This document shows, piece after piece, positions 6,193 through 13,108 of a stretch of 38,568 bases of DNA. Below the pieces are notes generated by a model. It saw only the letters and a list, made by a program, of their open reading frames with translations. It searched no databases and was not told the origin of the DNA. The stretch is from an uncultured Planctomycetaceae bacterium (lineage in GTDB: Bacteria > Planctomycetota > Planctomycetia > Pirellulales > Pirellulaceae). The first letter of the stretch is position 1, and each line of letters opens with the position of its first letter. The stretch lies in contig CAIPEB010000630.1 of NCBI GenBank assembly GCA_903863885.1, forward strand, positions 1 through 38,568, written 5' to 3'. The translations under genes and the position numbers were made by a program.

Positions 6193-7842
6193 TTACCGGG
6201 CCCAGTCGATTTCACGATCGCCGCGGATTCGCTGCCGGTAGTACTTCAGGCCGGGGATGAAGAAGCATGCGCCGCACACGGCGCCGAAGATCAGGTGCGC
6301 GACGCTGGGAAACAGTGCCATGACGGGCGTGGTGAGGAACAGCACCACGGCCTGGAAGTAGAACGAACCTGAGAGGATGCCGGCCTTCACCATGAAGATC
6401 ATCCCGGCGATCAGCGCGAGGACCGGCGAGAGCGTGAGCACCGGCAGGTCCAGCAGGATCTCGACGAAGAACAGCAGTCCGATGGCGATCATGCTTCCGG
6501 CCCATACGTGCGCGATCTGACGTTCGACGAACGTCACGGGGCCGACCCGCCGCCGCAGCCACCAGAAGACGGCAGCCCATGTGCCCAGCCCGAGCGTCCA
6601 GAGCACGATGTAGTACCATCGCTCCTCGAATTGCCAGTAGCGCAGCGCGTTGGTCAATGCGCACATCACGAGCAGCACGAGGCTGTGCCACATCCAGAGC
6701 AGGCCCCAGTTCTCGAGGACCGTGGCATGGTGCGTTTCGCGGATGAGCAGCGCGAGGACCTGCGTGAAGCGTCCGCTCCGGGCGGAAATCGGTTCATCCT
6801 TGAGGTAGGCCGCCAGATCTCGGGCCAGCGCATCGGCGGTCGGGTAACGGAGGTCGGGCGGCTTCTGCAGACATCGCAGGGCAATCAACTCGAGATCGCG
6901 GTCCGCGCGGGGATTGATGACTCGCGGCGGCACCACGTCCTGTTCGAGCAGCATGAGCACCGTATCCACGGGAGAAGCCGCTTGAAACGGCGGGCGGCCG
7001 GTGAGCGTGTGGTACAGGATCGAGCCGAGGCTGTAGACGTCGCTGGCCGGACTGACTTCGCCCCGCATTCCGGCCGCCTGTTCCGGTGCCATGTAGGCCG
7101 GCGTTCCAAGAACGGCGCCGCTGCGAGTCACGCTCACCGCGTCCGTGACCTGCTTGGCCAGGCCGAAGTCCGAGACGTGGGGCCTGCCCTCTTCGTCCAG
7201 CAGGATGTTGGAGGGTTTCAGATCGCGATGCAGCAATCCGCGGCGATGAGCCGAATCGACTGCTTCGCTGACTTCGGCCAGTATGCGAGCCGCCTCGCGG
7301 GGCGGCAGCGGGCCATCGGCCAGCCGCTGGGCAAGCGTGCGGCCGTGGACGTACTTCATGCTGAAATAGGGATGCCCGTCGATTTCGCCCACTTCATACA
7401 CGGGCACCAGTCCCGGATGGTCGAGTCCCCCGGCAGCTTCGGCCTCGGCACGAAATCGATCCCGTTCCGCGGCCGACGCGAGCCGCCCGCGCAGGATCAT
7501 CTTCACGGCCACCTCGCGGTTCAGGCTCAATTGCCTTGCCAGAAACACGATGCCCATGCCGCCGCGGCCGATCTCCTTGAGCAGTTCGTAGTCGCCGAAC
7601 CGATGAGGCAACTCGAAAGCGAGACTTCCCGCTTCATCCCGAGCAGGCTGCTGGGCCTGATTGCCGACGGTCTCCGCAAGCATGGCGGTTCCCCACAATG
7701 CCCTCAATTCATCGGCTAATTCGGGGTGTTGCCGGCAGACGGTCTGGATATCGACCGTCCGTCCCGCCATCGCTTCGTCGGCCAGCCGGGCGAGGAGGTC
7801 CGCCAGCATCTGTTCGTGAGCCGCAGGGTCGTCCGCCTTCAT
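6193..7842 (-). CDS. Membrane Ser/Thr protein kinase (Hanks type)
   Basis: 549 residues, ATG at 7842 with AGGAG upstream. The start overlaps the stop of the upstream sigma factor gene as ATGA, so translation is probably coupled. Residues 1-60 resemble the helical leader typical of planctomycete kinases. The kinase domain runs from about 81 to 345: glycine loop IGRGGMG (91-97), VAVK with Lys114, the catalytic loop HRDLKPSN (205-212, Asp207), DFG (225-227), then GTPAYMAPEQ. All catalytic residues are intact. The C-terminal 180 residues hold about five or six hydrophobic helices, giving a polytopic membrane anchor rather than the single-span sensor arrangement of PknB. The gene pair suggests that the kinase signals through, or is controlled with, the ECF sigma factor. 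The input signal is unknown. Confidence 0.95.
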   Translation of the reverse strand: MKADDPAAHEQMLADLLARLADEAMAGRTVDIQTVCRQHPELADELRALWGTAMLAETVGNQAQQPARDEAGSLAFELPHRFGDYELLKEIGRGGMGIVFLARQLSLNREVAVKMILRGRLASAAERDRFRAEAEAAGGLDHPGLVPVYEVGEIDGHPYFSMKYVHGRTLAQRLADGPLPPREAARILAEVSEAVDSAHRRGLLHRDLKPSNILLDEEGRPHVSDFGLAKQVTDAVSVTRSGAVLGTPAYMAPEQAAGMRGEVSPASDVYSLGSILYHTLTGRPPFQAASPVDTVLMLLEQDVVPPRVINPRADRDLELIALRCLQKPPDLRYPTADALARDLAAYLKDEPISARSGRFTQVLALLIRETHHATVLENWGLLWMWHSLVLLVMCALTNALRYWQFEERWYYIVLWTLGLGTWAAVFWWLRRRVGPVTFVERQIAHVWAGSMIAIGLLFFVEILLDLPVLTLSPVLALIAGMIFMVKAGILSGSFYFQAVVLFLTTPVMALFPSVAHLIFGAVCGACFFIPGLKYYRQRIRGDREIDWAR

Positions 7843-8498
7843 GGCTTCTCCTCGGCGGGGGGCTGCGGGGGCAACTCGTCAAGCAGCATCGATCGCAGCC
7901 GGCGAATCGCCCGCAGATATCGCATGCTGGCCGCCGGCTCCGTCAGTCCGAGGGATTGTGCGATCTCCTGGTTGGACAGGTGTTCGTAATGGCGCATCAG
8001 GACGATCTCCGCGTCCTGATCGTTCAGCTGCGAGATGCCCCGCTCGATGCGGACCGCAAGCTCCTTCTGAGTGGCGGCGGCTTCGGGAGTGAGTTGGTGG
8101 TCCCACAACTGGCCGGCCAGTTCCCGCGTTGAATGATCGCAATCCGCGGGCAGAACGAGCGGCTGTTCGCGATCAACGCTTCTGCGGGCCGATTGCCGAT
8201 GGCGGCGATGCGCATCAATGATCCGGTCGCGGGCAATGTGGCGCAGCCAGAGATGGAAGGGGAGCAGAGGGTTGGCCAGGTACCGCTGGATGCGCCGGTT
8301 CGCCTCGACGAACACGTCCTGCACCACATCGCTCACATCCAGCCGCCGCTGGATCCGCTGGTCCAGGCGGATCTGCACCAGACGGTGGACGGCCGCGCGA
8401 TGACGCTCCATCAGCCGGTTGATGGCGCCATCGTCCCCGTTTCGCGCTTCGCGAAGGAGTTCCTCGGTCCTGTCGGGATCTGGCCAGTTCGAGGCCAT
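7839..8498 (-). CDS. ECF-type sigma factor, planctomycete subfamily
   Basis: 219 residues, ATG 8498 with AGAGGAAA upstream. Region 2 is visible as a helix around LMERHRAAVHRLVQIRLD and DVSDVVQDVFVEANRRIQRY, followed by FHLWLRHIARDRIIDAHRRH. Region 4 is near the C-terminus (LNDQDAEIVLMRHYEHLSNQ followed by EIAQSLGLTEPAASMRYLRA), a helix-turn-helix that recognises -35 elements. The long linker between regions 2 and 4 and the RLDQRIQRRLDVSDVVQDV sequence fit the subfamily I recall as TIGR02984 (Sig-70_plancto1). No anti-sigma gene follows; instead the kinase gene overlaps the stop codon, suggesting control by phosphorylation. Target genes are unknown. Confidence 0.92.
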   Translation of the reverse strand: MASNWPDPDRTEELLREARNGDDGAINRLMERHRAAVHRLVQIRLDQRIQRRLDVSDVVQDVFVEANRRIQRYLANPLLPFHLWLRHIARDRIIDAHRRHRQSARRSVDREQPLVLPADCDHSTRELAGQLWDHQLTPEAAATQKELAVRIERGISQLNDQDAEIVLMRHYEHLSNQEIAQSLGLTEPAASMRYLRAIRRLRSMLLDELPPQPPAEEKP

Positions 8499-8920
8499 CG
8501 AGCTTTCCTCTCGCCAACTCGCGCTGGCTCTTCGGACGGATCAGGCAATCCGTCCTGCTTGGGTATCGCGCCCCTCGCACGCCCGATACCCGATCCGACC
8601 CACTGGATCGAGCACTTCTTCAACGCGCCGCAAAATGACGGGCTGGACCCTCAATCGCATTATCCTCAGGGCGTCGGTAAAACAGCAAGGTGTCGCGGTT
8701 TGCCTCGACCGGAGAGCTGCGAAAGTAGGCAGCGGGGCGGGACGGGAAAAGAGTGAAAAAAGGAACGATTTTCTGTTTCAAGTACTGAACGCGGAAGCCG
8801 CTGCAACTGCTACACTTAAGGCTCGCAGCCGTTACCCCACGCGGACACTTCTGTTAAAAAAGACAGCGGTGCAAATCTGCCGGGTTCTCGGCCTCGTCTA
8901 GATTCGTGAAGAGGCGTTGC
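8499..8920. other. Divergent intergenic region between two sigma-factor genes
   Basis: About 420 bases between two divergently transcribed ECF sigma genes. It must hold promoters for both. A minus-strand sigma-70-like candidate is at 8659-8688. On the plus strand only TACACT (8811-8816) resembles a -10 element and it lacks a good -35. I see no coding potential and no obvious shared operator. Confidence 0.5.
8659..8688 (-). promoter_or_regulatory. Possible sigma-70 promoter for sigma factor-kinase operon
   Basis: Read on the minus strand, TTGCTG (8688-8683), an 18-base spacer and GATAAT (8664-8659) resemble -35 and -10 elements. The leader to the ATG at 8498 would be about 155 bases. Confidence 0.3.
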
Positions 8921-9463
8921 GTGGCCAGAGTAGCGCGAAACTTCAGTTCCGCCAATTCGACTGCGGACACTGCTGCGCTGGAGGAAGTCTTCGAGCAGTA
9001 TCAGGCTGAATTGCTGGGAACACTCTACTATCTGGTCGGCAATACGGAGGATGCCCGCGACGCCCTGCAGGAAACCTTCATCAAATGCTGGCGGCACCAG
9101 GATCAGTTGGTGGAAGTTCAGAACATCAAGGCCTGGGTCTTTCGTATCGCGCTGAACACGGGCCGCGATTTGCGGCAGACCGCGTGGCGCAGAAAACGTC
9201 AGTCGTTGCCGGACGACGAGTCGATGATTGAAAGCAGGCAGAACGGGCCATCGAGTCAGGCGGCCCGGAACGAACAGATCCAGCGGGTGCAGACGGCTTT
9301 GCGGGATCTGGCTGAAGAGGAGCAGGAGGTCTTTCTTCTGCGGCAGAACGGGGACATGACCTACGAGGAAATATCCGATTCGCTGGGCGTGCCGACCGGC
9401 ACCGTCAAGACCCGCATGCGGCGCGCCCTGATGAAATTGCGTGAGGCCCTGGCCGAAACCTAG
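8921..9463 (+). CDS. ECF (RpoE-like) sigma factor
   Basis: 180 residues from GTG 8921, preferred because AAGAGG ends 6 bases upstream; an in-frame GTG at 8906 has no SD. Region 2 covers EEVFEQYQAELLGTLYYLVG, EDARDALQETFIKCWRH and IKAWVFRIALNTGRDL. Region 4 covers LRDLAEEEQEVFLLRQNGDM followed by TYEEISDSLGVPTGTVKTRM, ending in MKLREAL. Both regions are complete, as expected of a functional ECF factor that directs RNA polymerase to a small stress or envelope regulon. The next gene, 24 bases downstream, encodes a membrane protein whose cytoplasmic N-terminus could be the cognate anti-sigma. It is distinct from, and divergent to, the other ECF factor at 7839-8498. Confidence 0.93.
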   Translation: MARVARNFSSANSTADTAALEEVFEQYQAELLGTLYYLVGNTEDARDALQETFIKCWRHQDQLVEVQNIKAWVFRIALNTGRDLRQTAWRRKRQSLPDDESMIESRQNGPSSQAARNEQIQRVQTALRDLAEEEQEVFLLRQNGDMTYEEISDSLGVPTGTVKTRMRRALMKLREALAET

Positions 9464-9487
9464 GCAAGGCGGTTGGCCAGGAAACCC

Positions 9488-12400
9488 ATGGACCATCAAG
9501 AAGACCGCGAACAATTACTGTGGGAATTCGTTTATGGCCTGCTCCCGGAGCGGGACGCGGCGGAACTGCGCAAACTGATTACGTCGGATCCCGAAGTGGC
9601 CCGAGAGTACGTGCGTGTCAAGCAGCGATCCGAACTGGTCGCCGACGCAGCGCGAGTCGAGGTTCCGCCCATCGAATTGCAGAAGCCCACGCGGCGGAGC
9701 GTCGTGTTGTCCCGCACTTTGCGGTCACTCGGCACCAGCCAGTTCCGTTCGATCGCAGCCAAGGCGGGCAATGTTCTGATCGCCGCCGCTGCTGCCGTGC
9801 TGCTTTGCATGATCGGGTATGGCTACGTTCAGCCCCGGACAAGGTCGGTTGCTCAACCGGTGGCCGTCGATCTGGTTCGCGCGGAAGTCTGCGGGCCGCG
9901 GGCGATCAATCCGGAAACCTCGAATCTGTTCTCCGTGCAGACGAATTCCGTTTCCGGCCAGCCGCTGTCGACTCGTGTGACTTGGAGTTTCCACGATGCG
10001 CGCGGCAATGCTCAGCTTCAGCAGGAACTGGTGACCGACACGCTGGGACGGGGGCAGATCGAGTTGCCTCGGTCGCTCGCTCGATCCGCGGTGGAGTTGA
10101 AGGTCCGGGCGGGCGACTCAGGAGAATCCGCCTTCGCGGCCAATCTGACTCAGGCCGAACCGCGGCAGATGACTTACATCGCGCTGGATAAACGCGAGTA
10201 CCGGCCCGGCGAAACGATTCAGTATCGCTCCGTCACGCTCTCGCAATTGGGGCTGGTTTCCGATCACGAATCGACCGTTGAGTTCCGAGTGAAAGCTGCG
10301 GGACAGGACACGTCGCTGGCCGGACCGCAGCAGGTGCAGACTCGTCGGGGAGTCAGCGCGGGTTCACTTCCGCTTCCGGCCAAGACGGCACCCGGCAAAT
10401 ACCGACTTGTGGCAAGCAGTCCTGCGGCCGAGTTCGATGGTGCGGTCGCGAATTTCGTCGTGCGGGATCCGCGGGATTTGGACGTGAAACTGCAGCTCGC
10501 ACGGAATCGTCAAGCGAACGGGGATGAAGTCGTCGGCCAGATTCAGGTCTTTCGCGCAAGCGGCGAACCGGCTTCGGGGGCCAAGCTGAAAGCCGACGCA
10601 ACCGTTGATGACCGGTCCGCGGTCGCAGTCTCCGAACCCGCGCTGGCCGATAGCGAGGGAATGGGGGAAGTACGTCTTCAATTGCGGCCCGAGCACTCGA
10701 ACCGGCCGGGCATCGTCAATCTGCAGGTCACAGATCGCGATGGCGAAGCGACACTCGCGCAGCAGATTCCTGCCGACGGTCCGGAAGTCGATATCAAGTT
10801 CTATCCGGAAGGCGGCGAACTCGCGGCCGGGTTTGCGAACCGCGTCTATTTCACTTCCCGCACCCGTGCCGGCGAACCCGTCGAACTGACGGGCAGCGTT
10901 GTCGACAGCAATCGCAAGGAAGTCGCAGCGGCCCGGACGACAAGTGACGGGCGAGGCGTCTTCACGATAACTCCGGAAATGGGAGCGGACTATCGCCTCG
11001 AGTTGCCGAGTTCGGCACAGATCGAAGTTGCCCCGATTCCTTTGCCATCGCCCTCCCGCGCTCGCGCGAACCTGAATGTTGAGCAGGCCGTGTTGCCTGC
11101 CGGTTCGCCCGTGACGGCGGAGTTGCGAGCGGACCAACCCGAACCGAGGCTGCTTGTGGTTGCTTACTGCCGCGGCGTGCTCGTGGGCCAGCAGTGGATC
11201 GGCGAGGCCGGCTATGGCCGGCAGGAGGGAGGATACGCGTGTCGATTGCAGGTGCCTCTGTCTGCGGAGGCCAGCGGTGCGATTCGACTCGTGGCTTTCG
11301 ATTATCAGGACCAGCCTCCCGTGGCTCTTTCGGAGCGGCTTGTCTTCCGTCGTCCGGCGCGTCGAGTGAATCTGAAAGTCGAACCGGTTGCGGCCGCCGG
11401 CCGGCATCGGCTGCGATTCGAATCAACCGACCAACAGATGCGTCCCCTTGAGGCGGTGCTCGGAGTTCAAGTCACTCGAATCGCATCGGGCCGCGTTGGC
11501 TCGAACGAACTCGCGATGGCGCCCTATTACTATCTGGCGATGGAACTCGATCGCCCTCAGGAAATAGGCGACGGGCTTCGGTATCTTGACGAAACGCCGG
11601 AAGCCGCGGAGGAATTGGAGTTGCTCCTGGGCACTCAGTCCGCGCATCGTGTTCGCCTGGCCAGAGTCTCGATGTTCGCTCAATCCAGCCCGATCCGCCT
11701 GCCGACCTCCGCCGGGCAGGAAGTCTCCAGAGGCCGATCTCCGGAATCTCGCGCCGATCAGGAGTCTCTTGTCCCGGCCGCCGAAGATCTTCTCGCGAGT
11801 GTGGCGGTCAGCCCGCCTGAATTGGCCTCGCCTGTTCTGTTCAGCAACGCCGCCGAACTGGAGAGTGCCGCCCGGGTCGCGGAGCAGCCCGCGTGGGAGT
11901 TGGATCTGGCATTCCTGGGCAGGTTACTGGTTTGGGGTGGAGCTGCGCTCGCCGTCTTGGCAATCGTCTTCGCTGTGCTGAGATATCCGCAACGCTCGCT
12001 TTATCTGGCCCCGATCTATGCCACGTCCCTCGGCGCGTTGGTCGTCGGCGCGATGTGGATTTCGGAGCGTCCGGCAGGCGAAAGGCAGCTCGCGTTGGCG
12101 CCCCAATCGCCGGCGATCGAGGGGCTTCGCGAACACGCATTGGCGGAGAGGGAGGCGTCCGGCACGGAAGGGCTCGCTGCCGGCCGGCTCGTCAAGCAGA
12201 ACGCCCCGGAGACAAGCGTCGAAAGGAACGAAAGCAAGGATGTATTGCAGGACTTCGCTGCAGCCGCGCCGCCGGCGCCGTCCGCTCCGCGCGAGGAAGT
12301 GGCGGAGCGCAGGAAGCCGGACGCTGCGATGGGGCTGACACGCCAGCCATCCCCGCCTTCGCCTGCGAAGTCCGATGAGATCGGCTCGGCATTTGGAATG

Positions 12401-13108
12401 CCGGAAATGGCGCCGGGCATGGCGCCCGGCATGGCAGGTAACGCGATGGGAGCCGGTGCCGCCGGCGGGTACGGTGGTGCGATGGGAGCCGGTGCCGCCG
12501 GCGGGTACGGTGGTGCGCCGGGCGCTTTGGGTGGCGGTGTTGCCATGAAAGCGGCACCTCCGGAGGAGAGTGCGCCTCCCGCTCCGGCAGCACCCGCTCC
12601 GGCAGCACCCGCTCCGGCAGCACCCGCTCCACCGGCATCCGCGGGAACGGTTGACAAATTTGCCGACAATGCCAAGGGTAAAGCAGAAATGTCGTTTCCG
12701 GCTGCGGAAGCACCTGCGCCGAGTCCCGCAGCAGGTGTCGCACCAGAGCCGAGTCCTGCTCCGGCGGCGGCACCGGCTCTTGCCGACCAGCTGCAAATGT
12801 CGAAGGCTGCGACGCCGTCGGCGCCACGGCGAGACCCGGCGCCGATGGGAAGAATGAGCCGAGCGGCGGGGGGCGAGCAGAGTCGCGATAACAAAATGCT
12901 CGAACAACTTCAGAGGCGATTCATGTTCGCGCCCGAAGTGACTCTGGCATGGCTGCCGCGATTGGAGCTGAACGAGAACGGAAAAACGACCGTCGATTTG
13001 CCCAAGGCAGGAGCGGCTCGAGTTCGCGTGCGGGCCGATGCGCACTCCGATGGTCATCTCGGTTCGGTCGACATGACGCTCGACCTGCCGGACCCGACGT
13101 CGCGTTGA
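9488..13108 (+). CDS. Membrane protein with anti-sigma-like N-terminus and alpha-2-macroglobulin-like ectodomain
   Basis: 1206 residues from ATG 9488 (AGGAAA five bases upstream; a TTG at 9473 is unlikely). Residues 1-92 (LLWEFVYGLLPERDAAELRK and following) are helical and cytoplasmic, like planctomycete anti-sigma factors, but without an HxxxCxxC zinc motif. TM1 is about 95-112. The exported part (113-811) has an MG2-like domain near 228-330 (YIALDKREYRPGETIQYRSV) and further beta-rich repeats including FYPEGGELAAGFANRVYF. TM2 and TM3 (about 812-830 and 838-858) flank a basic loop, RYPQR. The tail has Ala/Pro/Gly repeats, then MFAPEVTLAWLPRLELNENG and following beta strands, resembling the A2M region. 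No CGEQ thioester motif is visible. It follows an ECF sigma gene by 24 bases, so it may be its anti-sigma and envelope sensor. The fusion of roles is inference. Confidence 0.85.
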   Translation: MDHQEDREQLLWEFVYGLLPERDAAELRKLITSDPEVAREYVRVKQRSELVADAARVEVPPIELQKPTRRSVVLSRTLRSLGTSQFRSIAAKAGNVLIAAAAAVLLCMIGYGYVQPRTRSVAQPVAVDLVRAEVCGPRAINPETSNLFSVQTNSVSGQPLSTRVTWSFHDARGNAQLQQELVTDTLGRGQIELPRSLARSAVELKVRAGDSGESAFAANLTQAEPRQMTYIALDKREYRPGETIQYRSVTLSQLGLVSDHESTVEFRVKAAGQDTSLAGPQQVQTRRGVSAGSLPLPAKTAPGKYRLVASSPAAEFDGAVANFVVRDPRDLDVKLQLARNRQANGDEVVGQIQVFRASGEPASGAKLKADATVDDRSAVAVSEPALADSEGMGEVRLQLRPEHSNRPGIVNLQVTDRDGEATLAQQIPADGPEVDIKFYPEGGELAAGFANRVYFTSRTRAGEPVELTGSVVDSNRKEVAAARTTSDGRGVFTITPEMGADYRLELPSSAQIEVAPIPLPSPSRARANLNVEQAVLPAGSPVTAELRADQPEPRLLVVAYCRGVLVGQQWIGEAGYGRQEGGYACRLQVPLSAEASGAIRLVAFDYQDQPPVALSERLVFRRPARRVNLKVEPVAAAGRHRLRFESTDQQMRPLEAVLGVQVTRIASGRVGSNELAMAPYYYLAMELDRPQEIGDGLRYLDETPEAAEELELLLGTQSAHRVRLARVSMFAQSSPIRLPTSAGQEVSRGRSPESRADQESLVPAAEDLLASVAVSPPELASPVLFSNAAELESAARVAEQPAWELDLAFLGRLLVWGGAALAVLAIVFAVLRYPQRSLYLAPIYATSLGALVVGAMWISERPAGERQLALAPQSPAIEGLREHALAEREASGTEGLAAGRLVKQNAPETSVERNESKDVLQDFAAAAPPAPSAPREEVAERRKPDAAMGLTRQPSPPSPAKSDEIGSAFGMPEMAPGMAPGMAGNAMGAGAAGGYGGAMGAGAAGGYGGAPGALGGGVAMKAAPPEESAPPAPAAPAPAAPAPAAPAPPASAGTVDKFADNAKGKAEMSFPAAEAPAPSPAAGVAPEPSPAPAAAPALADQLQMSKAATPSAPRRDPAPMGRMSRAAGGEQSRDNKMLEQLQRRFMFAPEVTLAWLPRLELNENGKTTVDLPKAGAARVRVRADAHSDGHLGSVDMTLDLPDPTSR
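12443..12514 (+). repeat. 36-base tandem duplication in macroglobulin-like gene
   Basis: Two identical, adjacent 36-base units (12443-12478 and 12479-12514) encode MGAGAAGGYGGA twice. They stay in frame, so copy number can change without disrupting the protein. Confidence 0.9.
12581..12625 (+). repeat. 15-base tandem repeat (three copies) in macroglobulin-like gene
   Basis: Three perfect copies of gctccggcagcaccc start at 12581, 12596 and 12611, encoding APAAP repeats in a Pro/Ala-rich linker. They are in frame and lie in the tail between the last membrane helix and the terminal A2M-like strands. Confidence 0.9.

Follow-up and report, generated by a model that had tools for sequence, protein, structure and literature searches.

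In the genome of an uncultured Planctomycetaceae bacterium, a sigma factor gene of the extracytoplasmic function (ECF) type is followed, 24 nucleotides (nt) past its stop codon and in the same frame, by a gene whose product is probably a macroglobulin-derived transmembrane (TM) anti-sigma factor that releases the sigma factor upon cleavage of, or binding at, its bait slot. Macroglobulins normally trap proteases, and alpha-2-macroglobulin (A2M) is an immune protein. The window, meaning the whole stretch of DNA that was analysed, is one entire contig (CAIPEB010000630.1) of 38,568 bases, from a genome of 11 Mb in 789 contigs. Coordinates and translation bear out the 1206-residue protein downstream of an ECF sigma gene that a first-pass annotation, made from the DNA letters alone, had described (ATG at 9488, stop at 13108). 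The features of the locus, with amino acid (aa) positions in the large protein, are as follows.

8873 to 8900, plus strand: putative ECF promoter of the sigma operon, AAATC-N17-CGTCTA; exact match, to a motif shared by sigma homologues
8921 to 9463, plus strand: ECF sigma factor, regions 2 and 4 (Pfam Sigma70_r2 and Sigma70_r4_2), with another possible GTG start upstream at 8906
9488 to 13108, plus strand: macroglobulin-type transmembrane anti-sigma protein, 1206 aa (Pfam, AlphaFold model, structural alignment)
9488 to 9673, plus strand: aa 1-62, predicted cytoplasmic anti-sigma domain of a degenerate ZAS type that lacks the zinc ligands (AlphaFold helices, homology, covariation)
9773 to 9829, plus strand: TM1, aa 96-114 (hydropathy; helix in the AlphaFold model)
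9875 to 11482, plus strand: ring of beta-sandwich domains MG1 to MG6, aa 130-665, minus the closing strands of MG6 (AlphaFold, structural alignment, Pfam MG2)
10175 to 10438, plus strand: Pfam MG2, aa 230-317, 33.5 bits versus a cut-off of 32.8
11654 to 11821, plus strand: disordered linker ahead of the hairpin (bait slot), aa 723-778 (pLDDT < 50)
11924 to 12055, plus strand: aa 813-856, hairpin of TM2 and TM3 at the bait-region slot, its short loop positively charged (hydropathy, model, family loop charge)
12059 to 12931, plus strand: long disordered linker rich in Gly, Pro and Ala past the hairpin, aa 858-1148 (pLDDT about 30-40)
12935 to 13087, plus strand: aa 1150-1200, strands that close MG6, where the Pfam A2M segment begins (pLDDT 80-95 across aa 1153-1202)

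The sigma open reading frame (ORF) spans 8906-9463 on the plus strand, and Pfam scores for regions 2 and 4 lie far over the cut-offs. Since the -10 match of the promoter ends at 8900, the start is more likely the GTG at 8921, as first annotated, than the one at 8906; the N-termini of homologues also entered this judgement.

The exported part of the large protein was modelled with AlphaFold (aa 93-1206, 25 sequences, mean pLDDT 66.7, pTM 0.63), and it is well supported, from the model, that this part has the fold of a macroglobulin ring, MG1 to MG6. Across aa 130-665 the pLDDT, in blocks of 10, is mostly 70-96 and at lowest 59. Structural alignment gave Z scores of 18-20 to CD109, human A2M, C5 and E. 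coli A2M: for CD109, Z 19.0 over 583 residues with a root mean square deviation (rmsd) of 6.5, model positions 37-1110 aligning on chain positions 25-745; for human A2M, Z 18.6 over 579 residues (rmsd 8.1, chain 28-788); and for E. coli A2M, Z 19.9 over 401 residues (rmsd 10.2). The alignment bridges the hairpin and reaches residue 745 of CD109, 788 of A2M and 820 of C5, which we take to be the end of MG6 in each; domain numbers were assigned by this correspondence with A2M. A custom A2M profile matches aa 1152-1200 and, with the model, identifies the terminal A2M-like strand region of the first-pass annotation as the strands that close MG6. That annotation had named the lack of an MG-like fold as an outcome that would count against it; the MG1-MG6 fold was found instead.

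Hydropathy places TM helices at aa 96-114, 813-831 and 838-856, the last two corresponding to modelled helices at aa 788-830 and 837-859, and together with the Pfam MG2 match this confirms the membrane helix, MG2-like domain and two-helix hairpin seen at first reading. CD109, A2M and complement C3/C5 are among the top structural matches across MG1-MG6, yet differ in that the window protein is sigma-linked; to our knowledge none of them has a membrane hairpin in the bait slot. In full-length relatives of the window protein the Pfam order is A2M_BRD, A2M, TED, bMG10, and the hairpin lies between A2M_BRD and A2M. Because the bait region sits within the corresponding MG domain (PMC4498604; papers are cited by PMC identifier from excerpts, and what we say of them extends to those excerpts), the hairpin can be assigned to the bait slot. 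The slot with its disordered linkers is thus present, but a TM hairpin occupies it. The hairpin loop contains 147 K and R versus 8 D and E across 65 family proteins, consistent with a cytoplasmic loop.

The N-terminus was predicted to be helical and to lack the usual zinc motif, and both points hold: three helices are modelled (pLDDT 89-95 across aa 7-56) and HxxxCxxC is not present in the window protein N-terminus. The window domain matches zf-HC2 with E 0.091 and 13.3 bits, under the cut-off of 22.2, and by eye it retains the pattern around the zinc ligands, not the ligands themselves. A homologue in a Gemmataceae metagenome-assembled genome (L088), whose sigma factor is 48% identical to the window sigma, matches zf-HC2 along the full model with 34.7 bits and HxxxCxxC present; by eye, the motif is also found in L057, L243, L258 and L259. 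Class I anti-sigma factors likewise mix zinc and non-zinc members, approximately 44% being without Hx3Cx2C (PMC7406223). Distances were compared for 41 sigma/large-protein pairs in which MG2, BRD and the N-terminal motif were all recognised. The correlation of sigma distances was 0.64 with those of the N-terminal domain and 0.39 with those of the exported part; the partial correlation of sigma with the domain was 0.56 given the exported part, and that of sigma with the exported part was 0.09 given the domain. The partial value was never attained in 500 permutations of the labels, a test that ignores relatedness and in which exported distances may be closer to saturation, both of which push toward the covariation observed. 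Sigma divergence thus appears, at the sequence level, to follow the cytoplasmic domain rather than the exported part. Collectively, homology and covariation make it well supported that the window N-terminus is a ZAS-type anti-sigma domain.

The sigma/macroglobulin pair is a conserved planctomycete family. Relatives fetched by the N-terminal pattern carry titles from Blastopirellula, Rhodopirellula, Pirellulaceae, Pirellulales and other planctomycetes, and a search for the same gene pair found it in 28 of 30 named loci, the remaining two beginning at contig edges. We gathered 116 distinct macroglobulin-type proteins via macroglobulin or N-terminal sequence, not via sigma, with close species included and therefore non-independent, and scored 107 for linkage. 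Seven with short upstream sequence and no sigma match were omitted (L049, L056 and L073 among them carry the domain), as were two without a recognised A2M segment or hairpin (L201, and L087, which has domain and sigma gene but runs off its contig); in two retained proteins the upstream sequence fell slightly short, but their sigma gene was visible. An ECF sigma gene lies upstream on the same strand in 66/66 proteins with the anti-sigma domain versus 5/41 without it, at <=250 nt in 64 of the former and about 700-775 nt in two. Homologues away from sigma genes, another contrary outcome named at first reading, thus did not occur among scored domain-bearing proteins. For the five sigma-linked proteins without a recognised domain, L254 has a domain by eye, L259 has zinc ligands, in L050 a separate reading frame encodes the domain, L252 is ambiguous, and L160, at a contig edge, is an exception. 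The bait slot of the 66 domain-bearing proteins holds two hydrophobic segments in 62 and one in 4, and 28 scored proteins are without domain, sigma or hairpin alike.

A phylum survey gave a match at 1e-20 in 59 of 294 genomes. Among 18 survey loci read, sigma and hairpin occur together in nine, two have sigma but no hairpin, and six have none of these; the last, L256, has a domain by eye and stands at a contig edge. A single clade of sigma-linked proteins was considered and found no support in a quick tree (32 of 95 forks open). We also noted a second clade, L057 with L051, L055, L056 and L212, of approximately 1,600 aa with a full thioester and sigma-linked where upstream sequence is covered. 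PDB sequence matches of the sigma-linked L057 are led by human CD109 and A2ML1, ahead of E. coli A2M.

The first-pass annotation had seen no thioester motif in the window protein. GCxEQ is indeed not found there, and the loss extends beyond the motif to the entire thioester half: MG7, CUB, TED and the C-terminal MG domain are missing by Pfam, motif and profile checks. Counting the window protein, domain and sigma occur together in 54 complete members; nine of these are without a recognised A2M segment, and the remaining 45 were compared. A full TED is present in 21/45 and GCxEQ in 20/45, while 24/45 have no full TED. All 21 TED-less members below 1350 aa with an A2M segment end 51-74 aa past its start (54 in the window protein), leaving barely enough sequence to close MG6. 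TED-less members are scattered over several places in the quick tree, which suggests, from a tree with many open forks and a long window branch, that the trap half was lost repeatedly. These counts bear on an alternative in which the protein acts chiefly as a protease trap tethered to the membrane, the sigma factor just tuning its own supply and signalling being secondary. The TED and GCxEQ retained by full-length relatives are what such a trap would keep, but the window protein, like many relatives, has shed the trap half entirely while keeping the anti-sigma domain and the sigma gene, and we regard this alternative as improbable.

A bipartite word search of sigma upstream regions found AAATC-N17-CGTC in 20/57, whereas in three mononucleotide shuffles no word exceeded 4. 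A wider pattern fits 31/57, including the window, the spacer being 17 in all but two, where it is 16. In one genus of eight genomes (g61), 75 pattern matches were found and the 60 with loci were examined. The motif is at the sigma promoter in 8/8 genomes, and also, in 8/8, 94-106 nt before a separate thioester macroglobulin ORF of 2,048-2,084 aa with GCTEQ (loci L311-L314 and L405-L408), the sole other recurring intergenic target seen; these species, being of one genus, are non-independent. Upstream of this macroglobulin, GAAATCG and TCGTCTA are invariant and the spacer is variable. At 18 other macroglobulin genes we saw variant matches only, which we took as chance. Separately, A2M-matching ORFs of approximately 1,950-2,265 aa are present in 46 of 60 family genomes.

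The exported ring might instead be a ligand receptor for a host, prey or envelope molecule, the hairpin serving as a mere anchor. RsiV is a lysozyme-receptor anti-sigma factor that changes shape on lysozyme binding, and by analogy the window protein would resemble it in sensing a protein through the exported part of an anti-sigma factor; the sensor fold of RsiV is unrelated to the macroglobulin ring. A receptor of this kind would fit the window form without the trap half, the 24 complete members without a full TED, and the retention of the ring. It fits less well with a hairpin that occupies the bait slot between long disordered linkers, or with a promoter motif shared by a thioester macroglobulin in all eight genomes of one genus. 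We consider the ligand receptor rather unlikely, noting that it overlaps the ligand branch of the bait-slot reading and that the likelihoods given to the two are not exclusive.

For the preferred reading, an anti-sigma factor released through the bait slot, we lean on regulated intramembrane proteolysis of RseA as the model (PMC8103513). Homology and covariation suggest that the helical domain of aa 1-62 would hold the sigma factor in the cytoplasm. By models and sequence, TM1 bears the exported MG1-MG6 ring, the chain re-enters the membrane as a hairpin at the bait position, and past the hairpin the long disordered linker leads out again to the strands closing MG6. The exposed linkers would be acted on by a ligand that binds there or by proteases that get into the periplasm; a cut or binding there might disturb the ring, expose TM1 to intramembrane proteolysis and free the sigma factor. 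The freed sigma factor would transcribe its own operon and, in the one genus, also a thioester macroglobulin that may be able to trap the protease. The window version, its trap half lost, would be a pure sensor. The first-pass proposal of a one-protein receptor is in part upheld: the sigma adjacency of homologues and the MG fold stand, and the sensing of protease or envelope damage by the window protein is something that we infer. It is quite possible, though less likely than not, that planctomycetes made a one-protein protease alarm from a trap, with a membrane-pinned bait whose cleavage frees the sigma factor, induction of a second thioester macroglobulin by that sigma factor, and shedding of the trap half in several lineages.

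Several observations weigh against the preferred reading. Bait cleavage by itself would leave the ring attached to TM1. Missing contact of the N-terminus with sigma regions 2 and 4 was the third contrary outcome named at first reading. When the sigma factor and the N-terminal domain were modelled as an AlphaFold fusion, read through the TAG, the pTM was 0.52, with no defined arrangement and a domain placement unlike known complexes; distance covariation gives such contact indirect support. In VIA-align on the fusion, matches fell mostly at 17-187 (sigma), and none of the 50 chains listed out of 699 aligned covers the N-terminal helices, which speaks neither way. L160 has a sigma fragment yet no domain. 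L252 and L259, from other planctomycete families, are sigma-adjacent without the hairpin, and since they lack it we dropped the notion that the hairpin is universal among sigma-linked macroglobulins. Eight proteins (L152-L154, L156-L159 and L161; 691-905 aa, one of them truncated where its contig stops, all in family f17 of the window's order) have ring and hairpin and neither sigma nor domain. The same eight show that domain and sigma gene go missing together, which is evidence beyond gene position; with ZAS-type homology and distance covariation it extends a sigma link that at first reading came from position only.

The promoter evidence outside the one genus points the same way. No clear motif was seen upstream of the thioester macroglobulin of the window genome itself (L209). 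That genome has 40 matches of RAATC-N17-CGTCTW, versus 1 for a reversed-pattern control unmatched in codon composition, and no second target was callable among the 30 with loci examined, by an ORF test so crude that even the sigma promoter fell within an antisense ORF. In four genomes of other genera a related pattern matched 20 times, each match having a locus; it picked up the sigma promoter in 3/4, and none of the 20 led into a macroglobulin of the g61 type. Two further genera, g36 and g18, gave 124 and 118 pattern matches, and the 60 of these 242 with loci, compared with the N-termini of the g61 and window macroglobulins, yielded no match. No examined motif locus, whether from the window genome or from 11 genomes belonging to other genera, precedes a thioester macroglobulin.

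Compared with known systems, the window protein is like the class I (ASDI) anti-sigma factors RseA, RskA and RsiW in having a helical domain at a cytoplasmic N-terminus, an ECF sigma gene next to its own and a TM anchor, and unlike them in its sensor, a macroglobulin ring of approximately 540 residues with a second membrane hairpin (PMC7406223). It shares with the type I macroglobulins ECAM and SaA2M the MG ring, a bait region within one MG domain, inner-membrane anchoring and, in its full-length relatives, the thioester, whereas the N-terminal anti-sigma domain, the bait-slot hairpin and the absence of MG7-CUB-TED-MG8 from the window protein set it apart (PMC4498604). As in type II MagD, the CXEQ thioester is absent; MagD, however, is encoded in a six-gene operon, has a bait region and traps protease, while here the whole thioester half is absent and the partner is a sigma gene (PMC5764988).

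Divergent from the pair lies a second sigma gene with a kinase gene, the kinase motifs and membrane helices being read by eye from the translation.

7839 to 8498, minus strand: second ECF sigma factor, divergent from the sigma/macroglobulin pair; relatives 56-68% identical at the same divergent place elsewhere
6193 to 7842, minus strand: gene for a membrane Ser/Thr kinase, which overlaps the second sigma gene at the latter's end; relatives beside the second sigma mostly 50-69% identical

The second sigma gene stands beside 14/29 TED-less versus 0/20 TED-bearing members (Fisher p 0.0002, ancestry ignored; complete members whose upstream sequence sufficed, with the window tallied by hand). This association would suit a scheme in which the kinase, rather than proteolysis, releases the sigma factor and the ring is a scaffold. 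Yet 15 TED-less members are without the module, the association takes no account of shared ancestry, and the kinase has its own sigma gene; we give this scheme little credence.

We found no macroglobulin anti-sigma factor in the literature searched, and an earlier mention is possible in the 2021 ECF classification or the 2012 and 2020 planctomycete papers, outside that literature; excerpts of PMC12839542 and PMC12485934 mention macroglobulin for other proteins only. If the bait-slot reading is true, the family would be a bacterial counterpart of complement-like immunity, with a macroglobulin reporting to transcription. A defined promoter, sigma factor and sensor, plus a putative effector gene in one genus, would open the role of bacterial macroglobulins, and what they sense, to direct tests. 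The family's gradation, with complete thioester traps at one end and ring-only sensors at the other, would show how a sensor may have evolved from an inhibitor.
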